From a virus: 64,000 nucleotides of DNA. The notes beneath the pieces are model-generated. The model did no database searches and was not told where the DNA came from. It saw nothing but the letters and a program-made list of their open reading frames with translations. Location of the stretch: positions 29,687 to 93,686 of IMG/VR virus record IMGVR_UViG_3300024307_000003; one strand, 5' to 3'. Shown piece after piece: positions 13,793 through 64,000 of the stretch (position 1 is the first letter of the stretch; every line of letters starts with the position of its first letter). The translations under genes and the position numbers were made by a program.

Positions 13793-14137
13793 TTAACAAA
13801 CAGAAACGTAAAGCAGAGGAGATTCACATCCCTCTCCCAATACAATCCCGTTTGGTGTTAAAATATCGTAAATAGTTAGACGTGCAGGAAGTGGTGTACA
13901 ATTCCTTGACGTAAGATAAGGGCCTAGTTTTAACCAGATTTCCCCTGTCTCAAATGGGTCTTCAGGAGTTCCTATCCAAGTGAAAGCATCATCATCAACA
14001 TCGCTGTCAACAAATTCACCATCACACTCAAGGGTCATCCTGAGAACACCAGAGAGGTCTACCGGAATCTCTTTATCCAACACCTTAATTCGGGTTGTTG
14101 TATCTGATCCTGCATAGACTGAAACGAAAATGGTCAT
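13793..14137 (-). CDS. Small virion adaptor-like protein
   Basis: I chose ATG 14137 because GGAGG lies six bases upstream; the ATG at 14149 has no ribosome site. The 114-residue beta-rich protein (TIFVSVYAGSDTTTRIKV...) has the layout of short fibre adaptors: two sheets of strands with a conserved RxTLECDGE turn. It sits between the two gp80-like genes. It is distantly similar in layout to the 30224-30535 protein (short strands, disks of about 100 residues), but I cannot show homology. Confidence 0.5.
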   Translation of the reverse strand: MTIFVSVYAGSDTTTRIKVLDKEIPVDLSGVLRMTLECDGEFVDSDVDDDAFTWIGTPEDPFETGEIWLKLGPYLTSRNCTPLPARLTIYDILTPNGIVLGEGCESPLLYVSVC

Positions 14138-14158
14138 ACAAACCTCCAAATGAAGGAG

Positions 14159-14566
14159 TTACGCCACTTCCAGACGCAGTTCACCGATAGGAAACTGACG
14201 TACTTGACCAGAAAGAACAGTAACCGGAGAAGTTAATGCAAAGTGCATAATGACATTACCAGCACCATGTGTGGCACTATCAGTGATAAAAGCATGTGTT
14301 GCAGTTACCCAATCAGCCGATGCTGTAAAGTTTACTGCACCCGTATTTGCAATACGGTTGTTTGCACCTCCAGACGGGGCACCAAAAGTAACCGCTTGAC
14401 GAGCATAGCCGTTAGAGTTGGCCAGCTCGGGAATGGTTGCTCCTGTGTGAGCATCTGTTGTGGCAGACGAAGCCAAACCAACGTACACAGTTGTTGGGGC
14501 TGTAATGTTGGTGCCACGAATCCAATTAAGGATTGCGTTTTCCATATAATCTGAAAAAGCGGACAT
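14159..14566 (-). CDS. Small gp80-like virion surface domain protein (copy 2)
   Basis: This 135-residue paralogue of the 13402-13782 product begins MSAFSDYMENAILNWIRG, then TTDAHTGATIPELANSNGYARQ, NTGAVNFTAS and ATHAFITDSA. The N-terminal helix (YMENAILNWI) is the usual start of this domain. The tandem arrangement with the paralogue suggests local duplication around the intervening adaptor gene. Confidence 0.65.
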   Translation of the reverse strand: MSAFSDYMENAILNWIRGTNITAPTTVYVGLASSATTDAHTGATIPELANSNGYARQAVTFGAPSGGANNRIANTGAVNFTASADWVTATHAFITDSATHGAGNVIMHFALTSPVTVLSGQVRQFPIGELRLEVA

Positions 14567-14594
14567 CTGTTATTGTTTTCCTCTATGTTGTGCC

Positions 14595-15470
14595 CTAAAG
14601 AGCGTTCCTGTTAATTGAATGAACAAGACGAATTTTTTGTAATCTTTGGAGACGAAGCGATGGGGAACGAATTGTTCCTGAAGCAAATCCACTTCCTAAT
14701 AGCGATCCTGCTAAATCAGACCCAGTAGCCAAGAATGTGGAGTTAACCACTCCAGTTCCTGTTCCAGAAGCTGTCCCTGCAAGGTCAGCAGCTTGAGAAA
14801 GGATTGTGTTTCCTGTTCCAGTGGCTACCCCTTGGCTTTGTCCAGCAAAGCCCGTGTAGAGGCCCCCAGAGGCTATAGCTGTCCCTACGGAGTCCCCAGA
14901 GATATAATCAGGTTGGTCAATTCCCCCTTCTACTAACCCGCTTCCCAGAGCAGAAGCCCTGAAGGTCAGAAGAACTGTTCCTGTTGCGGTAGAGGATGCC
15001 ACTCCAGAGGCTCGTAGAGGCTCATAGAGACCTCCTGATACAAACCCGCTACCTAAGCCTTGGGCACTCCATATTTCGCTAAGGGAAGCTCCACCAGAGC
15101 CTGTGCCTACAGCATCAGCCTTGATGTCTTGGATTGTTGTAACAGAAGCAACGCTTCCAATTCCAACCCCTAGAACCTCTGCTCTAAATACATCATCGTC
15201 TATATTTCCATCAGCTACACCCGAGCCAAGGGCTACGGACTGTAGGGCTGGATAACTTGTGGCCTCTCCTGATCCAACTCCAGAAGCATCAGCTTCCAAG
15301 ACAGAATAGATTCCCCCAGAAGCTAACGCTTGTCCTACAGGGGCGGCAGTGAAGTATTGAACGAGGTTGGCAGTGGCAAATCCACTACCGAGAGCATCAG
15401 CTTCAAACGCGGGTAAGTAATCAAACCCACTATCTTCAGGTGTTAGAAAGCTGCGATCTAAGACAGCCAT
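14595..15470 (-). CDS. Gly/Ser/Ala repeat virion protein
   Basis: This 291-residue protein is built almost entirely of irregular repeats, about 20-25 residues long, with the core ALGSGxAxGxI. They are seen about ten times from residue 25 to 275, and the end is a basic tail (RLQRLQKIRLVHSINRNAL). Such repeats are expected to form a rod or beta-solenoid. It lies in the surface-protein block between capsid and neck genes. Function unknown. Confidence 0.55.
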   Translation of the reverse strand: MAVLDRSFLTPEDSGFDYLPAFEADALGSGFATANLVQYFTAAPVGQALASGGIYSVLEADASGVGSGEATSYPALQSVALGSGVADGNIDDDVFRAEVLGVGIGSVASVTTIQDIKADAVGTGSGGASLSEIWSAQGLGSGFVSGGLYEPLRASGVASSTATGTVLLTFRASALGSGLVEGGIDQPDYISGDSVGTAIASGGLYTGFAGQSQGVATGTGNTILSQAADLAGTASGTGTGVVNSTFLATGSDLAGSLLGSGFASGTIRSPSLRLQRLQKIRLVHSINRNAL

Positions 15471-19551: not shown

Positions 19552-20785
19552 AATGGTGTGCCCCTCTCTTAGTTGTGGTTGGTCTTACTGTGTCGTCAAC
19601 ATCGTACAGAACATCCGCTGATCTATTAGAAGATGGGACAGCTGCGCCTCCTGTGGAGTTCAATCTTAGGTTCCCTGTTGAGGGATTTACAAACCACGAT
19701 GAACTTGCGTTTAATGTATTATTGTCTCCAGTATAGTTAGCAGAATCTCTCATTCTTATACTGTCATCAGATAGATTATTATCCACTACTAAACCACTAG
19801 ACCATCTACCTTGGAAAGCATCATTAACTTGGCCATTTGTTACCACGGTATTGTTTATGGCTTTACCATTAGGACAATCCCACAGATTAATTGCTCCATC
19901 TGACCCAGCTATTGTTTCAGCACTGAACCTGCCTGCGGCCATATAAACCATATTGTTTCTAGCAATACCACCATAGCAATCATTTTCTCCGCCGCCCCTT
20001 AAAATCAAACCTAGAGATATAGATCGGGCACAATTAATAAAAGTGTTCTGTTCCACAATAGGGTTTGTTGATCTGTTCCAGAAATAAACGGCTGGGCTAT
20101 ATAAGTAGTAGGTTGCTCCTCCGGGAAGAGCTGCAATTTCTGCTGCTGTTGGAGTGTTCTCAATAAATTGATTCTTTCGTACTACCCAACCACTACTATT
20201 GTGGACATCTATCATTCCACCATAAAAATAACCTGCACCTTCATGGTCTGTTGTAGGGCGTCCGTTTGTATATGCAAAATAACTATTTTCTACAAGTCCA
20301 TTATTAATGGCGTCGGGAAATGCGCTGACTTTCAAAAACTGTTGGCCCATATCCAACATTCTTACGTTTCTTAATGTAGGGCTAGTTGCTCCGGCTCCGA
20401 AGGTAACACCGTGAAAATAAAATTGCTCTATTGTTAAATCTTCTACTGTCAAACCGGGGTATTGGGAATATATACCGTGAGGACAACCACCGTAGCTGGA
20501 GTTGTCCATTCCCCTTCCCCTCAATACAATATCTGAAGCTACTCCAGAGGCACCTTTTATTGTTACATTGCTAGCTGCTGGAACTAAAGTATTATTGAGA
20601 ACATAAACACCCGGCCAGACAATTTCAATTATGTCGTTTGGTTGGGCAGAACTTATAGCCGCCTCTAACCCGGACAAGGTGCCTACTTGTACAATACGCC
20701 CGTTGTATGGGTAAGGATACCAGTACGTATCTGGGTGTTGGTATAAAGTTATTGCCGATCCCGGCACCGTTATTGTTTTAGCCAT
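19544..20785 (-). CDS. Parallel beta-helix virion protein (pectate-lyase-like fold)
   Basis: I chose ATG 20785 (after GAGGG), not the more distal start at 20824, because it aligns with the neighbour's MSKTIVVPGS start. After the N-terminal anchor (KTITVPGSAITLYQHPDTY), the 413-residue protein shows solenoid spacing: IIEIVWPGVYVLNNT, VTIKGASGVASDIVLRG, LTVEDLTIEQFYFHG, then many N-x-x asparagine-ladder turns. This is the Pectate_lyase_3/right-handed beta-helix pattern of tailspikes that bind or cut polysaccharide. Catalytic residues cannot be assigned. Confidence 0.65.
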   Translation of the reverse strand: MAKTITVPGSAITLYQHPDTYWYPYPYNGRIVQVGTLSGLEAAISSAQPNDIIEIVWPGVYVLNNTLVPAASNVTIKGASGVASDIVLRGRGMDNSSYGGCPHGIYSQYPGLTVEDLTIEQFYFHGVTFGAGATSPTLRNVRMLDMGQQFLKVSAFPDAINNGLVENSYFAYTNGRPTTDHEGAGYFYGGMIDVHNSSGWVVRKNQFIENTPTAAEIAALPGGATYYLYSPAVYFWNRSTNPIVEQNTFINCARSISLGLILRGGGENDCYGGIARNNMVYMAAGRFSAETIAGSDGAINLWDCPNGKAINNTVVTNGQVNDAFQGRWSSGLVVDNNLSDDSIRMRDSANYTGDNNTLNASSSWFVNPSTGNLRLNSTGGAAVPSSNRSADVLYDVDDTVRPTTTKRGAHHYV

Positions 20786-30227: not shown

Positions 30228-30535
30228 TGTGTAACACTCCGAAGAACATTGATTTCAAATGTCTCTGTGTATACGACTTCTGTAGAGGGGAGGGTGTAAC
30301 GAATGTCACAATAGAGAATACATATGGGCCAATCATCTGTAGAGCTGTCTGAGAGAGTGAAAATCCCGTTAACGTTGTCTGTACGTGTGACAGTTAATTG
30401 TGAAACAAGTTTGTTACTCTTGTCTCTAATTTGTGCTGCAATTGTCCAGCTTGCAAAATCGGATGGAACTACTCCATCGGATTTAACGGATATATCACGG
30501 GAGAAGGTGGCTCCACGTTTGTGTGAAATCTGCAT
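30224..30535 (-). CDS. Small fibre-adaptor-like protein
   Basis: The protein has 103 residues and begins MQISHKRGATFSRDISVKSDG, then IAAQIRDKSNKLVSQLTVT. It is a short all-beta domain of the kind found at the base of collagen-like phage fibres (BppU/adaptor type). It is the first gene after the leader with alternative hairpins. Its stop overlaps the start of the collagen-like gene, so they are translationally coupled. Confidence 0.55.
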   Translation of the reverse strand: MQISHKRGATFSRDISVKSDGVVPSDFASWTIAAQIRDKSNKLVSQLTVTRTDNVNGIFTLSDSSTDDWPICILYCDIRYTLPSTEVVYTETFEINVLRSVTQ

Positions 30536-31670: not shown

Positions 31671-31745
31671 TGGTGTTCGTGCAGAGAATTGAACTCTGAT
31701 TAACAGGTTGAAAACCTGCTGTCCTCACCATTGGACGACACGAAC
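31671..31745 (-). tRNA. tRNA-Glu (anticodon TTC)
   Basis: The 75-nt cloverleaf has acceptor GTTCGTG/CACGAAC, discriminator A and an encoded CCA. The anticodon arm AGGTTTTCAACCT gives TTC. The T arm is AGAGTTCAATTCTCT. It is the last tRNA of the cluster, followed directly by the structured RNA. Confidence 0.93.
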
Positions 31746-31751
31746 AATATT

Positions 31752-31825
31752 TGGAGCGGGAAGAGGGGTTCGAACCCTCGCTATCAACTTGGAAGGATGA
31801 AGTGCTACCATTACACCATTCCCGC
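31752..31825 (-). tRNA. tRNA-Gly (anticodon TCC)
   Basis: The 74-nt gene has acceptor GCGGGAA/TTCCCGC, an encoded CCA and a T arm GAGGGTTCGAACCCCTC. The anticodon loop CTTCCAA gives TCC. Six bases separate it from tRNA-Glu. Confidence 0.93.
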
Positions 31826-31830
31826 AAATT

Positions 31831-31906
31831 TGGTGCTGCCATCAGGACTCGAACCTGAAACCTACCGCTTACGAAACGGTTGCTCTACCAGTTGAGCTAC
31901 AGCAGC
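31831..31906 (-). tRNA. tRNA-Thr (anticodon CGT)
   Basis: The 76-nt gene has acceptor GCTGCTG/TGGCAGC, D stem GCTC/GAGC and T arm TCAGGTTCGAGTCCTGA. The anticodon loop TTCGTAA gives CGT. CCA is encoded. All parts fit a standard cloverleaf. Confidence 0.93.
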
Positions 31907-31914
31907 ATACTTCG

Positions 31915-32040
31915 TGGGGGAGGCTGGAGTCGAACCAGCAAGCCAGATAAACTACTCACAAGGCTTAAAGCCGGCTGCCTTGTTTTCACTCACGAGACTA
32001 CCCCTCTCTGGGGCTGCGTATCCCATTCCGCCACTCCCCC
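31915..32040 (-). tRNA. Leu-like class II tRNA gene with about 38 extra nucleotides
   Basis: The ends are tRNA-like: acceptor GGGGGAG/CTCCCCC, a Leu-type D region (TGGCGGAATGGG, ATACGC) and a perfect T arm GCTGGTTCGACTCCAGC. But the middle is 76 nt where a class II tRNA has 31-38. It contains CCCC/GGGG, a 7-bp ACAAGGC/GCCTTGT stem with a 12-nt loop containing TTTAA, and GCAGCC twice. No standard anticodon arm can be drawn, so the anticodon is undetermined. CCA is not encoded. It may be a decayed or insertion-bearing tRNA. Confidence 0.6.
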
Positions 32041-32046
32041 GTAATT

Positions 32047-32122
32047 TGGTCGGAGATACAGGATTTGAACCTGTGACATTTTGCTCCCAAAGCAAACGCG
32101 CTACCAGACTGCGCTAATCTCC
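32047..32122 (-). tRNA. tRNA-Pro (anticodon TGG)
   Basis: The 76-nt gene has acceptor GGAGATT/TATCTCC-type pairing and D stem GCGC/GCGC. The anticodon arm TTTGC-TTTGGGA-GCAAA gives TGG. The T arm is CACAGGTTCAAATCCTGT and CCA is encoded. It is the first tRNA of the cluster after the structured leader. Confidence 0.93.
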
Positions 32123-32482
32123 AATAAACGATCCGGACACCACTTGGAAACAACAACGTTGTCCCTCGGCCCGCCTTGGCGCGAGCACAGGGAAGAGTAT
32201 GAATCCTCCCTGCTGGGTAGCGCTCGATCTCATCCGGTGTTCCCTTTTCAGGGAGTCGCTACGTTCGTGTGTCCAGAAGGGGAGGAACTATGTTCCCACG
32301 AATCTTCTGGCACGCAATTGATTAATCTTAAAATGTGCCTACCCGAAGTTACCTTCCGTCTGCAAGCAACAAACTCCCTTGTCAGTTCAAGGGAAGGTAG
32401 GGCTTAAGTCATCACCGGTATGGAGGCCGGGAGAGGTGTCCTCAGAAGATGGAACACATAATTAACAAACTTCCCTATTTGT
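32123..32482 (-). ncRNA. Structured leader of the tRNA operon
   Basis: Between the promoter and tRNA-Pro there is no gene but strong helices on the minus strand. CCCTTG/CAAGGG lies inside ACCTTCC/GGAAGGT. CCAGAAG/CTTCTGG encloses GGAAC-ATA-GTTCC. GTAGCG/CGCTAC encloses CCCT-GAAA-AGGG (a GNRA tetraloop). GCAGGGA/TCCCTGTGC also forms. It may be the 5' half of the same large RNA as 30690-31670, with the tRNAs embedded. Confidence 0.5.
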
Positions 32483-33134: not shown

Positions 33135-33378
33135 ACTACCAATCCTCTTGTTGTTTTAATCCAGATAAGTTAAAATCTAAAAGAAAGAAAAAGAACCAAA
33201 AAGAAAGAAAATAACTAAATAAGTATATAATACTATAATCTATACATAGCTTTGTACTATACCTTGCTATACTATGCGTTGCTACTTCTTAACCTACTAA
33301 GGAAACTCACTACGTTCGTTTCTATTCCTTGCTTAGGCGGACAATATCGTTTCACTCATTGTCCTGTTCAGTAGGACC

Positions 33379-33407
33379 ATTTTAGCAATAATTTTTTAGT
33401 TTGTCAA
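33379..33407 (-). promoter_or_regulatory. Leftward promoter
   Basis: The minus strand shows TTGACA (33407-33402), 17 bases ending in TGC, and TAAAAT (33384-33379). It lies about 250 bases ahead of the 33134 start and would drive the leftward genes. Confidence 0.75.
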
Positions 33408-33634
33408 TACCTAATTACTAATCTTTACAAAATTAATACTAATTAGTTACATTAGTGTATACTTTATTTACTAGTTGGATTAGGAAAAGATTCGTTAGCT
33501 GTAGACTCTACGCTTCGCTTCGTAGTCTACTTGAAGCTGTGTCCTAGTGAGTCGGACACAGCGAATATAATATAATAATAAAGTAACTTAACTAATATCT
33601 TTGGTGTAAATCTCTTCTTCAAAGAAGAATTGTC

Positions 33635-33662
33635 TTGACTTTGTGTCAGAATCTGCTAAGAT
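33635..33662 (+). promoter_or_regulatory. Rightward promoter
   Basis: TTGACT, a 16-base spacer ending in TGC, and TAAGAT form a near-consensus promoter 45 bases ahead of the first rightward gene. It shares the extended TGCTAnnAT -10 with the leftward promoters. Confidence 0.75.
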
Positions 33663-33706
33663 TTGAACATGGGAACTGTTTGTAAAACAAACTGAATGGA
33701 GGAATA

Positions 33707-55822: not shown

Positions 55823-55850
55823 AAGGGAGCTAAACGCTCCCTTTCTGTTT
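55823..55850. terminator. Bidirectional intrinsic terminator
   Basis: AAGGGAGC-TAAAC-GCTCCCTT followed by TCTGTTTTG lies between the convergent 55815 and 55830 gene ends. Its stem (GGGAGC/GCTCCC) is nearly identical to the terminator at 45609. Confidence 0.85.
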
Positions 55851-58508: not shown

Positions 58509-59468
58509 CTATATACTTGACAAAATATGTGATATGACATCCACGGTCCAACCGTTCCCCAGCATCTTATATCGTTGAGAATCGGACACACAAGCAGTGT
58601 AATTGTCAGGAATGGTTTGCAATCTCTCGCACTCAATTGGTGTTAATTTTCTCACCACTCCCTCGCGTAGTAGGAGATTGTTGGCAGGCCATGACGATGT
58701 GGTTAAAGATGGAACCTTCCCATCAATAGCACGTATTCCACCAGCGTTCCCTCCATGTGGCCACTGTAGAATGTATGTACAATTCCATGACAGTTCGGCC
58801 CGAACCGTCAAACATTTTGCTTTCGTTGGATTGAATGCAACATATCCTCCCCTCTCTTTAACTTCTCCGAATTTTTGCAACCAAGACAATCTACCACCCT
58901 TTACATAGTATTTGTCGTCTACTGCGGGTTGGAGAATATCTTGCAATACCAACCCTCTGTCGCTTGGTTGTGTAACAGCAACATTGGACCAATACAATCT
59001 ATACCTATTTTGCGCTGATACAAGGTTAGAGTTTATGACAACAGGCACAACCCCTAGCCGTTTTGTAATTATATCCTTATACTCTTGTTTCATTTTGACA
59101 TTTTCTAGTAACCAATATCTGGGGTTTGTCTCGTTTTTAAGTCTTTCAAACTCAAAGTACAACGCACTTCTGGGATCGTCAAAAGCTAACCCTTTACCGG
59201 CAGTTGAAAATCCTTGGCAGGGTGATCCTGCCAATAAAATGTCCACTTTGCCAATGTATGTCTCGCCATCTTCATAATACAACGTACCATTTTCATACCT
59301 AATCTTTGTCACATCTCCAATATGGGTTATATCTTTCCAGTTGTGCTTGCTTGCTTTAATAGCCCACTTGTCAATCTCTGAAGCAAAATACCGTGTTACA
59401 GGAATTCCTGCTCTTTCTAAGGCAATCCTTCCACAACTCATACCATCAAATAAACTCAGTACAATCAT
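58509..59468 (-). CDS. dcm: DNA (cytosine-5-)-methyltransferase
   Basis: The 319-residue protein has motif I LSLFDGMSCGRIAL (5-18), motif IV GSPCQGFST with catalytic Cys84, motif VI ENV (122-124) and motif VIII QNRYRLY (153-159). A target-recognition region follows, then motif IX-X (LTPIECERLQTIPDNYT, MLGNGWTVDVI). It methylates C5 of cytosine in a specific site, probably protecting phage DNA from restriction. No cognate nuclease is nearby. It has its own promoter. Confidence 0.92.
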   Translation of the reverse strand: MIVLSLFDGMSCGRIALERAGIPVTRYFASEIDKWAIKASKHNWKDITHIGDVTKIRYENGTLYYEDGETYIGKVDILLAGSPCQGFSTAGKGLAFDDPRSALYFEFERLKNETNPRYWLLENVKMKQEYKDIITKRLGVVPVVINSNLVSAQNRYRLYWSNVAVTQPSDRGLVLQDILQPAVDDKYYVKGGRLSWLQKFGEVKERGGYVAFNPTKAKCLTVRAELSWNCTYILQWPHGGNAGGIRAIDGKVPSLTTSSWPANNLLLREGVVRKLTPIECERLQTIPDNYTACVSDSQRYKMLGNGWTVDVISHILSSI

Positions 59469-59505
59469 TAACTCCTCCTATTCAAAGCTCCGACCATTCA
59501 GAGCC

Positions 59506-59534
59506 ACGATAACCCAAAGCTTCGTATCTGTCAA
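59506..59534 (-). promoter_or_regulatory. Promoter of the cytosine methyltransferase gene
   Basis: On the minus strand TTGACA (59534-59529), a 17-base spacer and TATCGT (59511-59506) lie 38 bases before the start. GGAGGAG sits just ahead of the ATG. Confidence 0.65.
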
Positions 59535-60538
59535 GGGAGCATAATGTAATCCTAACGAATCTCTTCCCTGCTACCTCCTCCCCTCCTACATACCTCCCTT
59601 GCTATATCAATCATAGCTTAGAAATATCCATATAAGAAATATCCTTTGGTGTATACGAAGCCACGTATCTAACAAAGCTTTGTATGTCCGTAGCCACGAA
59701 TACAACGAACAGCATAGCTCTACGTAAGAGCTTTGAATCAGCTATGCGCCTAAGCAGGACAGACCGTATTCGGAGAATATGTGTCTGGACTAAGACAGAC
59801 CAGCTCCTGTGGAGATGTGTCTGGCCCCCCACCCCTGCCCCGTACCTTACCTAGCTAGCTTTTTGGAAATATCCAATAGGCCCTACGGACCTCTTGTTTC
59901 CAATCGTAGCCTTGCTACGGCTGGCCTATGCCATGCCCCTACCTTGTGCCAGCGCTCTTTGCCTTGTGCTGGATACAAAGCCTATACCCTGATTTCCAGC
60001 ATACAAAGCTTTGTACTATTCGTGGCTCTGTATAGTACATGGCAAGGTATATGCAATAGCAATGAATATGCCAATACTAAGGATAGATATAGCTATGTAT
60101 AGCTTTAGCTATGTTACTCACTAGTAAGGTAATGCAACAAAGTGGTGCATGGGGTGGCCTGATAAATCAGTCCCCAATAGACATAATCTATGTGAATATA
60201 CATAGCCTTGACTATTCATAGCAATGATACATACAAAGCCACGTCTGATACAAAGCCACGTATGGTACATAGCCTTGAATAGTGCGTTGATTTATATAGA
60301 TTATTAGGCGTTTTGGTGGATACTTATTAGGTGGGATAAGACAAGACAAAACGCCATGTAAGAATACACAAGACTATTGTTTTGTTTACAGGGTTAAAGG
60401 TAAGAAAGGGAGCATTAGGTTTGCATTACCGATGCCCGTAGGACTGCATAGGAAGGGCTACAGGGAGCGTTTATTAGCTCCCTATAGGGTAGGATAGGGG
60501 AGGGATTAGAAAGGGATTAAAGGGCCTTATCGGACCCT
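59535..60538. repeat. Repeat- and palindrome-rich non-coding region
   Basis: No gene can be supported in this kilobase. Direct repeats include a 17-bp tandem pair (60231-60247 and 60248-60264, core ATACAAAGCCACGT) and scattered ACAAAGC and CATAGCCTTGA copies. Perfect hairpin arms include GCATAGCT/AGCTATGC, CGTAGC/GCTACG inside TAGGCC/GGCCTA, GCTGGA/TCCAGC, GTACTAT/ATAGTAC and the palindrome TACAAAGCTTTGTA near 60001. Possible roles are replication origin, regulatory hub or structured RNA. Confidence 0.6.
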
Positions 60539-60540
60539 TT
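60519..60540 (-). terminator. Weak terminator-like hairpin
   Basis: AAAGGG/CCCTTT arms (60519-60524, 60535-60540) overlap the stop of the zinc-finger-like gene. The following T tract is poor, so termination is uncertain. Confidence 0.35.
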
Positions 60541-60940
60541 ATATTTCATCCCACTTACAAATAACTTGGCCTTTGTAGGTTAGATTCCCGTTAAAATCAA
60601 TTTTCAGCGCCTTAAAGCGCATACTTTTTCCGTCGTGAATTTTTACTACTCCATTAGGTAGAATCCTTTCAGCGTCCTCTTTGTATCCAGTTAGGGAACA
60701 CACTTTCAACGCGAAGGAAACGCCATTGATAGAACCTGTAGCGTGCATCCACCACAAACATGTCTCGGTATCTTGCACATAAGTGGTAATGGCTGGTAAG
60801 AATTTACCTTTTTCCTTTTTGGCCTTGCCACCTACCTTAGTTATACAGGTATAACCATACACTTTGCCGTTATGAAAGTAAGGGCAAGTGACTTGCTCAC
60901 CACACAAAGCACAAGTGTAAAAAATTGCCTTGTTTGCCAT
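60539..60940 (-). CDS. Zinc-binding protein of unknown function
   Basis: The 133-residue product begins ANKAIFYTCALCGEQVTCPYFHNGKVYGYTC (shown here as features only: CxxC at 10-13, further Cys/His near 19-32), a likely zinc site. The rest is beta-rich (GVSFALKVCSLTGYKEDAE, then SMRFKALKIDFNGNLTYKG). Possibly nucleic-acid binding. It has a promoter candidate just upstream. Confidence 0.6.
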   Translation of the reverse strand: MANKAIFYTCALCGEQVTCPYFHNGKVYGYTCITKVGGKAKKEKGKFLPAITTYVQDTETCLWWMHATGSINGVSFALKVCSLTGYKEDAERILPNGVVKIHDGKSMRFKALKIDFNGNLTYKGQVICKWDEI

Positions 60941-63483: not shown

Positions 63484-63912
63484 TTAGCCGATGGAATAAT
63501 AAACTTTCTGTGTTTCTGGCACATAAAAGATATTGCCGGAATATGTCCCTTCTTGCTGTCCCTGTTCGGAGGCTTCCCAGTCGATTTCTGACCAATGATC
63601 ATTATCCAAACCAGCATCCCGAATATCGCCGCTGATAAACTGAATCAATAAGGCAATCAATTCTTGATCATTCCAGCCTGCTATTTCATCTTTTTCCCAT
63701 GCACCAAACTGGCCAAACCAATAACGCAAAACGTCCCTACATTCTGTGCCATTGTAGGCTTTTGTGTCAAGCCAATAAAGGTAATTTTCTGCCTCTTTTT
63801 TGGCATTGTTCCATGTAATAGTTCCAGCATTGTCGCCCATTTCAAAACAACTAGCCGAAAAGTTGTAGGGCTCTTCTGTTTGGAAAAAATCTGTAATGTC
63901 AAGTTCTAACAT
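63484..63912 (-). CDS. Hypothetical acidic protein
   Basis: ATG 63912, behind AGAGG, gives 142 residues (MLELDITDFFQTEEPYNFSA). The sequence is acidic and aromatic, with TITWNNAKKEAENYLYWLDT, DQELIALLIQFISGDIRDAG and a C-terminal GNIFYVPETQKVYYSIG. Proteins of this layout (about 140 residues, early region) are common in phages but uncharacterised. Confidence 0.58.
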   Translation of the reverse strand: MLELDITDFFQTEEPYNFSASCFEMGDNAGTITWNNAKKEAENYLYWLDTKAYNGTECRDVLRYWFGQFGAWEKDEIAGWNDQELIALLIQFISGDIRDAGLDNDHWSEIDWEASEQGQQEGTYSGNIFYVPETQKVYYSIG

Positions 63913-64000
63913 TGTTATTGCCTCTTTTTGTCGGCACATATCCACAATAATCAGGGGAATTAACCAAACGAGTTATCAAACGTTTCGCACCCAAAAAAGT
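63899..64000 (-). CDS. Hypothetical protein, C-terminal end only
   Basis: The frame is open from the right edge to a TGA at 63899, encoding 33 residues (FLGAKRLITRLVNSPDYCGY, then VPTKRGNNN). It overlaps the next start by 14 bases, as many genes here do. Too little is visible to name it. Confidence 0.4.
   Translation of the reverse strand, partial: TFLGAKRLITRLVNSPDYCGYVPTKRGNNNVRT

Follow-up and report, generated by a model that had tools for sequence, protein, structure and literature searches.

What is the function of a gene-free kilobase next to the methyltransferase gene of an uncultured phage? An initial annotation had described this DNA as non-coding and rich in short repeats and perfect palindromes, and had named a replication origin, a partition-like site or a structured RNA as candidate roles. 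The DNA analysed as a whole, referred to as the window, comprises 64,000 nt and corresponds to bases 29687-93686 of the source record, which has 93,686 bases; positions refer to the window unless stated otherwise, and negative positions precede its first base.

The phage and its relatives

The record is classed as linear. Despite this class, its ends (window 63872-64000 versus record 1-129) overlap by 129 bp with 99.2% identity, which suggests a genome that is probably complete or nearly so and closes on itself. The gene set is that of a contractile-tailed phage (myovirus) with terminase, portal, capsid, tail sheath and baseplate genes, and replication and nucleotide genes are present as well (DNA polymerase, primase-helicase, ribonucleotide reductase, thymidylate synthase, ligase). 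Four tRNA genes (Glu, Gly, Thr, Pro) lie at 31671-32123 within a gap of about 2 kb. Limnohabitans phage DC31 (40.0% identity for the capsid, 53.7% for the polymerase) and Curvibacter phage P26059A (polymerase, 52.5%) are its nearest isolates, both of them remote. Pseudomonas phage vB_PseuGesM_254 is also related (major capsid protein, 38.8%). Since DC31 and P26059A are the nearest isolates, our guess is a host among the freshwater Burkholderiales.

DNA searches of a phage collection returned no match for 24 kb of the structural region and no close relative carrying the gene-free stretch. Terminase and capsid searches in IMG/VR gave one 5.9-kb contig at 100% as the sole near match. For the assignment of protein families, 86 of the 130 listed proteins were placed by alignment (38 in set A1, 48 in set A2) and 3 were added by hand. 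Profile scans covered 30 mostly larger proteins and then overlapping sets of 10; 25 of 29 families were displayed, and the gene of the 'DNA binding protein' family phrog_624 was sought among 10 proteins and not located there.

A gene-free stretch between two minus-strand genes

The stretch is flanked by two genes on the minus strand, a DNA (cytosine-5-)-methyltransferase gene (58509-59468; TIGR00675, E 3.4e-41; PF00145, E 2.9e-41) and a gene for a 133-aa protein without assigned function (60539-60940). For each of the five open reading frames of at least 40 aa between them, the codon-usage log-odds fall below zero (-4.9 to -7.7), which confirms that no gene fits here, but the limits of the gene-free DNA are better set at 59469-60538 than at 59535-60538 as first annotated. 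It is the third-largest gap of the record according to a home-made gene caller, whose list of gaps shifts with the threshold. On the circularised genome the stretch is located near the distal end of a leftward block that also holds the DNA polymerase and primase-helicase genes.

The 133-aa protein matches no Pfam family above the cut-off, and its single relative, a weak one, comes from Vibrio phage vB_CoeS_P1; beside the gene of that relative no array was seen when judged by eye. A stem-loop with a stem of 7 at the end of its gene (60518-60541, minus strand) is probably the terminator. The best promoter-like site for the methyltransferase gene, TTGACA-17-TATCGT with 10 of 12 matches, is found on the minus strand at 59534-59506; we grade it as weak, because the scan yielded fewer sites than its shuffles. 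The stretch had been placed upstream of the methyltransferase promoter, which is nearly right, since this site falls inside the stretch.

Repeats and hairpins compared with chance

To judge the repeats in 59469-60538 we used dinucleotide shuffles (300, and 1000 for tandem autocorrelation). Of the two words highlighted in the initial annotation, ACAAAGC has 7 of the record's 35 copies here; the other, CATAGCC, is weaker (2 of 15 copies in the stretch; 8 of 49 for CATAGC). The local tandem autocorrelation was 0.60, compared to a maximum of 0.545 in the shuffles. Where at least five perfect hairpins had been noted, some of them nested, we list ten stem-loops with perfect stems of at least 6 bp, some nested or overlapping (59712-59747 encloses 59716-59732, and 59974-60015 adjoins 60012-60039).

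In the shuffle comparison, 9 stems of at least 6 bp were observed versus a mean of 3.5 (reached in 5 of 300 shuffles), 2 perfect 12-bp palindromes versus 0.38 (15 of 300), and 6 dyads with at least 6 of 7 pairs versus 1.9 (5 of 300). Palindromes of 8 bp were not enriched (6 versus 5.8), those of 10 bp hardly so (3 versus 1.6; 64 of 300), and those of 6 bp were rarer than in the shuffles (13 versus 21.2). As many 6-bp stems occur in 28 of 174 equal-sized windows of the record, so that the number of hairpins does not by itself set the stretch apart. The number of dyads does, being reached in 2 of the 174. Two further structures are a 9-bp stem with an inner stem of 5-6 bp at 60307-60355 (z -6.0 as DNA; as RNA, -5.2 for one strand and -5.9 for the other) and a 7-bp stem-loop, AGGGAGC/GCTCCCT, at 60462-60483 (z -4.6 as DNA).

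One rival reading is a structured RNA: the stretch would give rise to a folded non-coding transcript or a long leader. The folding z values for the whole stretch (-5.9 for the plus and -6.9 for the minus strand, 30 shuffles) speak for this. However, both strands fold about equally, as inverted repeats in DNA would. Further support comes from a tandem pair of hairpins on the plus strand at 59760-59787 and 59796-59823. Both copies form one bulged structure, but their inner stems differ in sequence, and copy 1 is more stable on the plus strand (-14.2 kcal/mol) than on the minus strand (-8.4). As the pair keeps its fold despite the changed stem sequence, some role as RNA or single-stranded DNA is possible for these two hairpins. 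A search of 136 sequences (1.78 Mb) turned up no further copy of the tandem hairpin, the only Rfam match to the stretch was at chance level (E 2.6), and the halves of the dyad units described below do not co-vary. For the stretch as a whole we regard a structured RNA as improbable.

A family of phased dyads in four arrays

The repeated words reduce to one unit, a degenerate 14-bp dyad centred on GC with the consensus TACRNRGCYNYGTA. Fourteen such units form four arrays with a spacing of 16 or 17 bp. Array A (59481-59526) has three dyads with centres at 59487, 59503 and 59519 (spacing 16, 16), array B (59654-59700) three with centres at 59660, 59677 and 59693 (17, 16), and array C (60002-60049) three with centres at 60008, 60025 and 60042 (17, 17). 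The five dyads of array D (60199-60279; centres 60205, 60221, 60238, 60255 and 60272; spacing 16, 17, 17, 17) include the previously noted 17-bp tandem repeat, which we find at 60231-60274 (period 17, 2.6 copies, 88% matches). In the literature searched, to which most subscription journals do not belong, we found no published description of these arrays.

Of the 26 copies of the core CRNRGCYNYG that the record contains, 13 lie in the stretch, which makes up 1.1% of the record length. Among GC-centred sites, at least 5 of 6 arm bases were present in 8 of 64 within the stretch versus 23 of 3827 elsewhere (Fisher p 2e-8), a value to be read beside a held-out test, since the motif was derived from the stretch itself. 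For this reason weight matrices were applied to arrays that had not contributed to them. With a matrix from array D alone, the units of array B ranked 5, 8 and 15 among all positions of the record, those of array C 6, 10 and 20, and those of array A 17, 18 and 39; a site at 33249, outside the stretch, ranked 7. With a matrix trained on arrays A, B and C, the units of array D ranked 4, 7, 8, 9 and 27, and the site at 33249 ranked 3.

We also compared the two halves of each unit with re-dealt halves. At the inner positions 17 of 42 agreed (17.1 for re-dealt halves), and over all positions 59 of 112 (57.5). This lack of co-variation argues against small cruciforms or RNA stems within the units, and for separate half-sites: judged from their sequence, the dyads look like candidate protein half-sites, each read separately as by a dimer, and not like hairpins. 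The sequence AGCT was considered as a methylation-site signal (15 in the stretch versus 6.05 expected from the rest) and rejected, as it is no more than a part of the motif.

Could the dyads be short repeats that are decaying or multiplying freely, or relics of a lost gene, with no present function? The copies in the stretch differ widely, and in three other phages that we examined, selected gaps are likewise enriched in words particular to the phage; both would fit such a history. Against it stand the exact phasing of 16-17 bp within four separate arrays, the conservation of arm and centre positions among the units while the intervening bases vary, and the tandem hairpins, which keep their pairing when folded. 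We consider it rather unlikely that the arrays are without function.

Dyad arrays near small genes would also suit a partition-like site, as the initial annotation had proposed, here a parS-like site of a plasmid-like prophage. Among the scanned proteins there was no ParA, ParB, RepA, integrase or repressor family name; as no partner genes were found there, we consider this proposal very unlikely.

Motif copies outside the stretch and GC skew

An isolated further copy, TACATAGCTTTGTA, is located at 33243-33256 (centre 33249) in another long intergenic stretch at the start of rightward genes, and weaker units continue from there to about 33290. Like the copy at 33243, one at -15394 (record 14293) in yet another long intergenic stretch has full arms, and there is one more at -18098; a high-scoring copy at -15179 (record 14508) lies in a long intergenic stretch that precedes rightward genes. 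In the long intergenic stretches at window 33135-33706 and record 13847-15115, both ahead of rightward genes, stem-loops and promoter-like sequences occur together with copies of the motif.

The main rival to a replication role is an operator array, in which a phage transcription regulator would bind the dyads and so control the early operons as well as the methyltransferase gene, with no part in replication. It owes this rank to two observations: the last dyad of array A occupies the 17-bp spacer of the methyltransferase promoter-like site, and two other intergenic stretches, each ahead of rightward genes, also contain high-scoring copies (33249 and -15179). However, arrays B to D are located 120-760 bp from the promoter-like site, beyond what a single operator needs, and no repressor family was recognised among the scanned proteins. 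The closest relative of the methyltransferase (L004, 60% identity) has no such leader, with 23 bp to the upstream ORF; the same comparison led us to reject the methyltransferase as the cause of the arrays. We rate an operator array as possible but, on balance, doubtful.

Recording the GC skew had been suggested as a way to locate an origin. The cumulative skew has its minimum at 33439, inside the gap at 33135-33706, and its maximum at 55829, so that the stretch is at neither extreme. In this record the skew follows gene direction. If it is trusted nevertheless, the origin could be at the minimum, which is close to the gap with the copy at 33249.

A DnaA-box element in distant relatives

An origin-like element, situated in a gap between small early genes, is common to DC31 and P26059A (20225-20360 of the DC31 record, 30311-30388 of the P26059A record; 79 aligned positions, 82.3% identical, E 5e-13), with five exact DnaA boxes in DC31 and one in P26059A. 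A 19-base core of this element was found in 20 IMG/VR contigs (L120-L139). At least two exact DnaA boxes within 700 bases are present in 14 of the 20, mostly at fixed offsets around CTTATATAAG, and none in L132 and L138. Beside the core, 12 of the 20 contigs and DC31 have a strong tandem array (score at least 0.64) with a period of 16 or 20 bp, while P26059A and 8 contigs are without one. These counts are not independent, since L120 and L127, L123 and L130, and L124 and P26059A look like near copies. The 20-bp units are dyads, ACTNNNNAGT, in contigs L123, L125, L130, L131, L133 and L135-L137, where 5 to 11 occur per 500 nt versus 0.1-0.3 expected. A description of the element of DC31, P26059A and the 20 contigs was not found in the literature searched.

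This element resembles the stretch in being a gene-free gap among small genes with phased arrays of degenerate repeats or dyads (16 or 20 bp) in most copies. It differs in its conserved DnaA-box core and in its repeat sequences, which are unrelated: in our phage the stretch has no DnaA box even when one mismatch is allowed, and the conserved core of the relatives is absent from the whole record. The flanking genes of the stretch have no match in DC31, so that gene order and position are not demonstrably homologous.

Pattern searches led to no relative of the arrays. One tandem-unit pattern had no match in IMG/VR; two IMG/VR and two bacterial-genome matches were rejected as unrelated near-perfect tandem repeats, and a pair pattern was present in 1 of 13 records, that of this phage. 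The IMG/VR contigs L097 (4920-5240) and L098 (9565-9880) have in common a non-coding GC-rich tandem array of the GGAGCCGCGACTGTTAC type, unrelated to this phage.

The stretch as a candidate replication origin

Taken together, the anatomy of the stretch and the analogy to other systems lead us to favour, tentatively and at somewhat less than even chances, an iteron-like array of sites for a putative dimeric protein that would most likely be part of a replication origin. Like iteron origins, the stretch has a number of short repeats in phase (14 units in four arrays, recovered in the held-out test). Replication is our first choice because of the comparison with the phased arrays of the relatives and the precedent of repeat-bearing non-coding origins, and of the three roles proposed in the initial annotation it is the best supported, on grounds of anatomy and analogy and with no help from the GC skew. 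We infer the following course of events. A dimeric DNA-binding protein, of the phage or the host, would occupy the TACRNRGCYNYGTA dyads side by side. Loading of this protein on the arrays may melt adjacent AT-rich DNA, either at 59603-59652, a possible unwinding element that has the lowest duplex stability of all 50-bp segments in the stretch (99.3rd percentile of instability in the record), or at 60284-60306 beside array D (97.4th percentile for 60282-60306). The phage's own primase-helicase and DNA polymerase could then enter and start replication.

Several observations speak against an origin. DnaA boxes are absent from the stretch, the extremes of the GC skew lie elsewhere, and array A coincides in part with the promoter-like site of the methyltransferase gene, a position that would suit an operator. 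No initiator was recognised either: no Rep family was found among the scanned proteins, but as many of these have no family at all, an initiator of unrecognised type may be among them.

A broader reading, which we consider rather improbable, is that the origin of this freshwater phage group is a swap-in module, with host DnaA boxes in some phages and phage-specific phased dyad arrays in others. Pitch (16, 17 or 20 bp) and sequence would change between phages, perhaps because satellites or origin-directed nucleases select for change, and the phage studied here would have dropped the DnaA boxes and would rely on its array and an unrecognised initiator. To our knowledge, origins of large virulent phages are hardly known beyond a few models. 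If our preferred reading of the stretch as part of an origin is true, it names a 1-kb candidate origin and provides a lead to an unrecognised initiator; related phages would then renew the sequence of their origin arrays, yet keep the design.

The origin of bacteriophage lambda has adjacent iterons with internal dyad symmetry that are bound by a dimeric initiator. The neighbouring repeats with internal dyads in our stretch resemble this arrangement, but the lambda iterons sit inside the O gene and their initiator is known. The iteron origins of plasmids and of PLE, a satellite of the Vibrio cholerae phage ICP1, are like our stretch non-coding, with short semi-palindromic repeats (PMC7145576, PMC8263062), and repeat-bearing non-coding regions can serve as origins (PMC7145576). 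In PLE the iterons number three, each about 30 bp long, and the initiator is of the RepA_N type (PMC7145576, PMC8263062), in contrast to the 14-bp dyads at 16-17 bp without recognised initiator found here. For Pseudomonas phage vB_PseuGesM_254, an origin with AT repeats and DnaA boxes was predicted by Ori-Finder (PMC11512268); these features set it apart from our stretch, which it resembles in having repeats at the end of a primase/DNA polymerase block.
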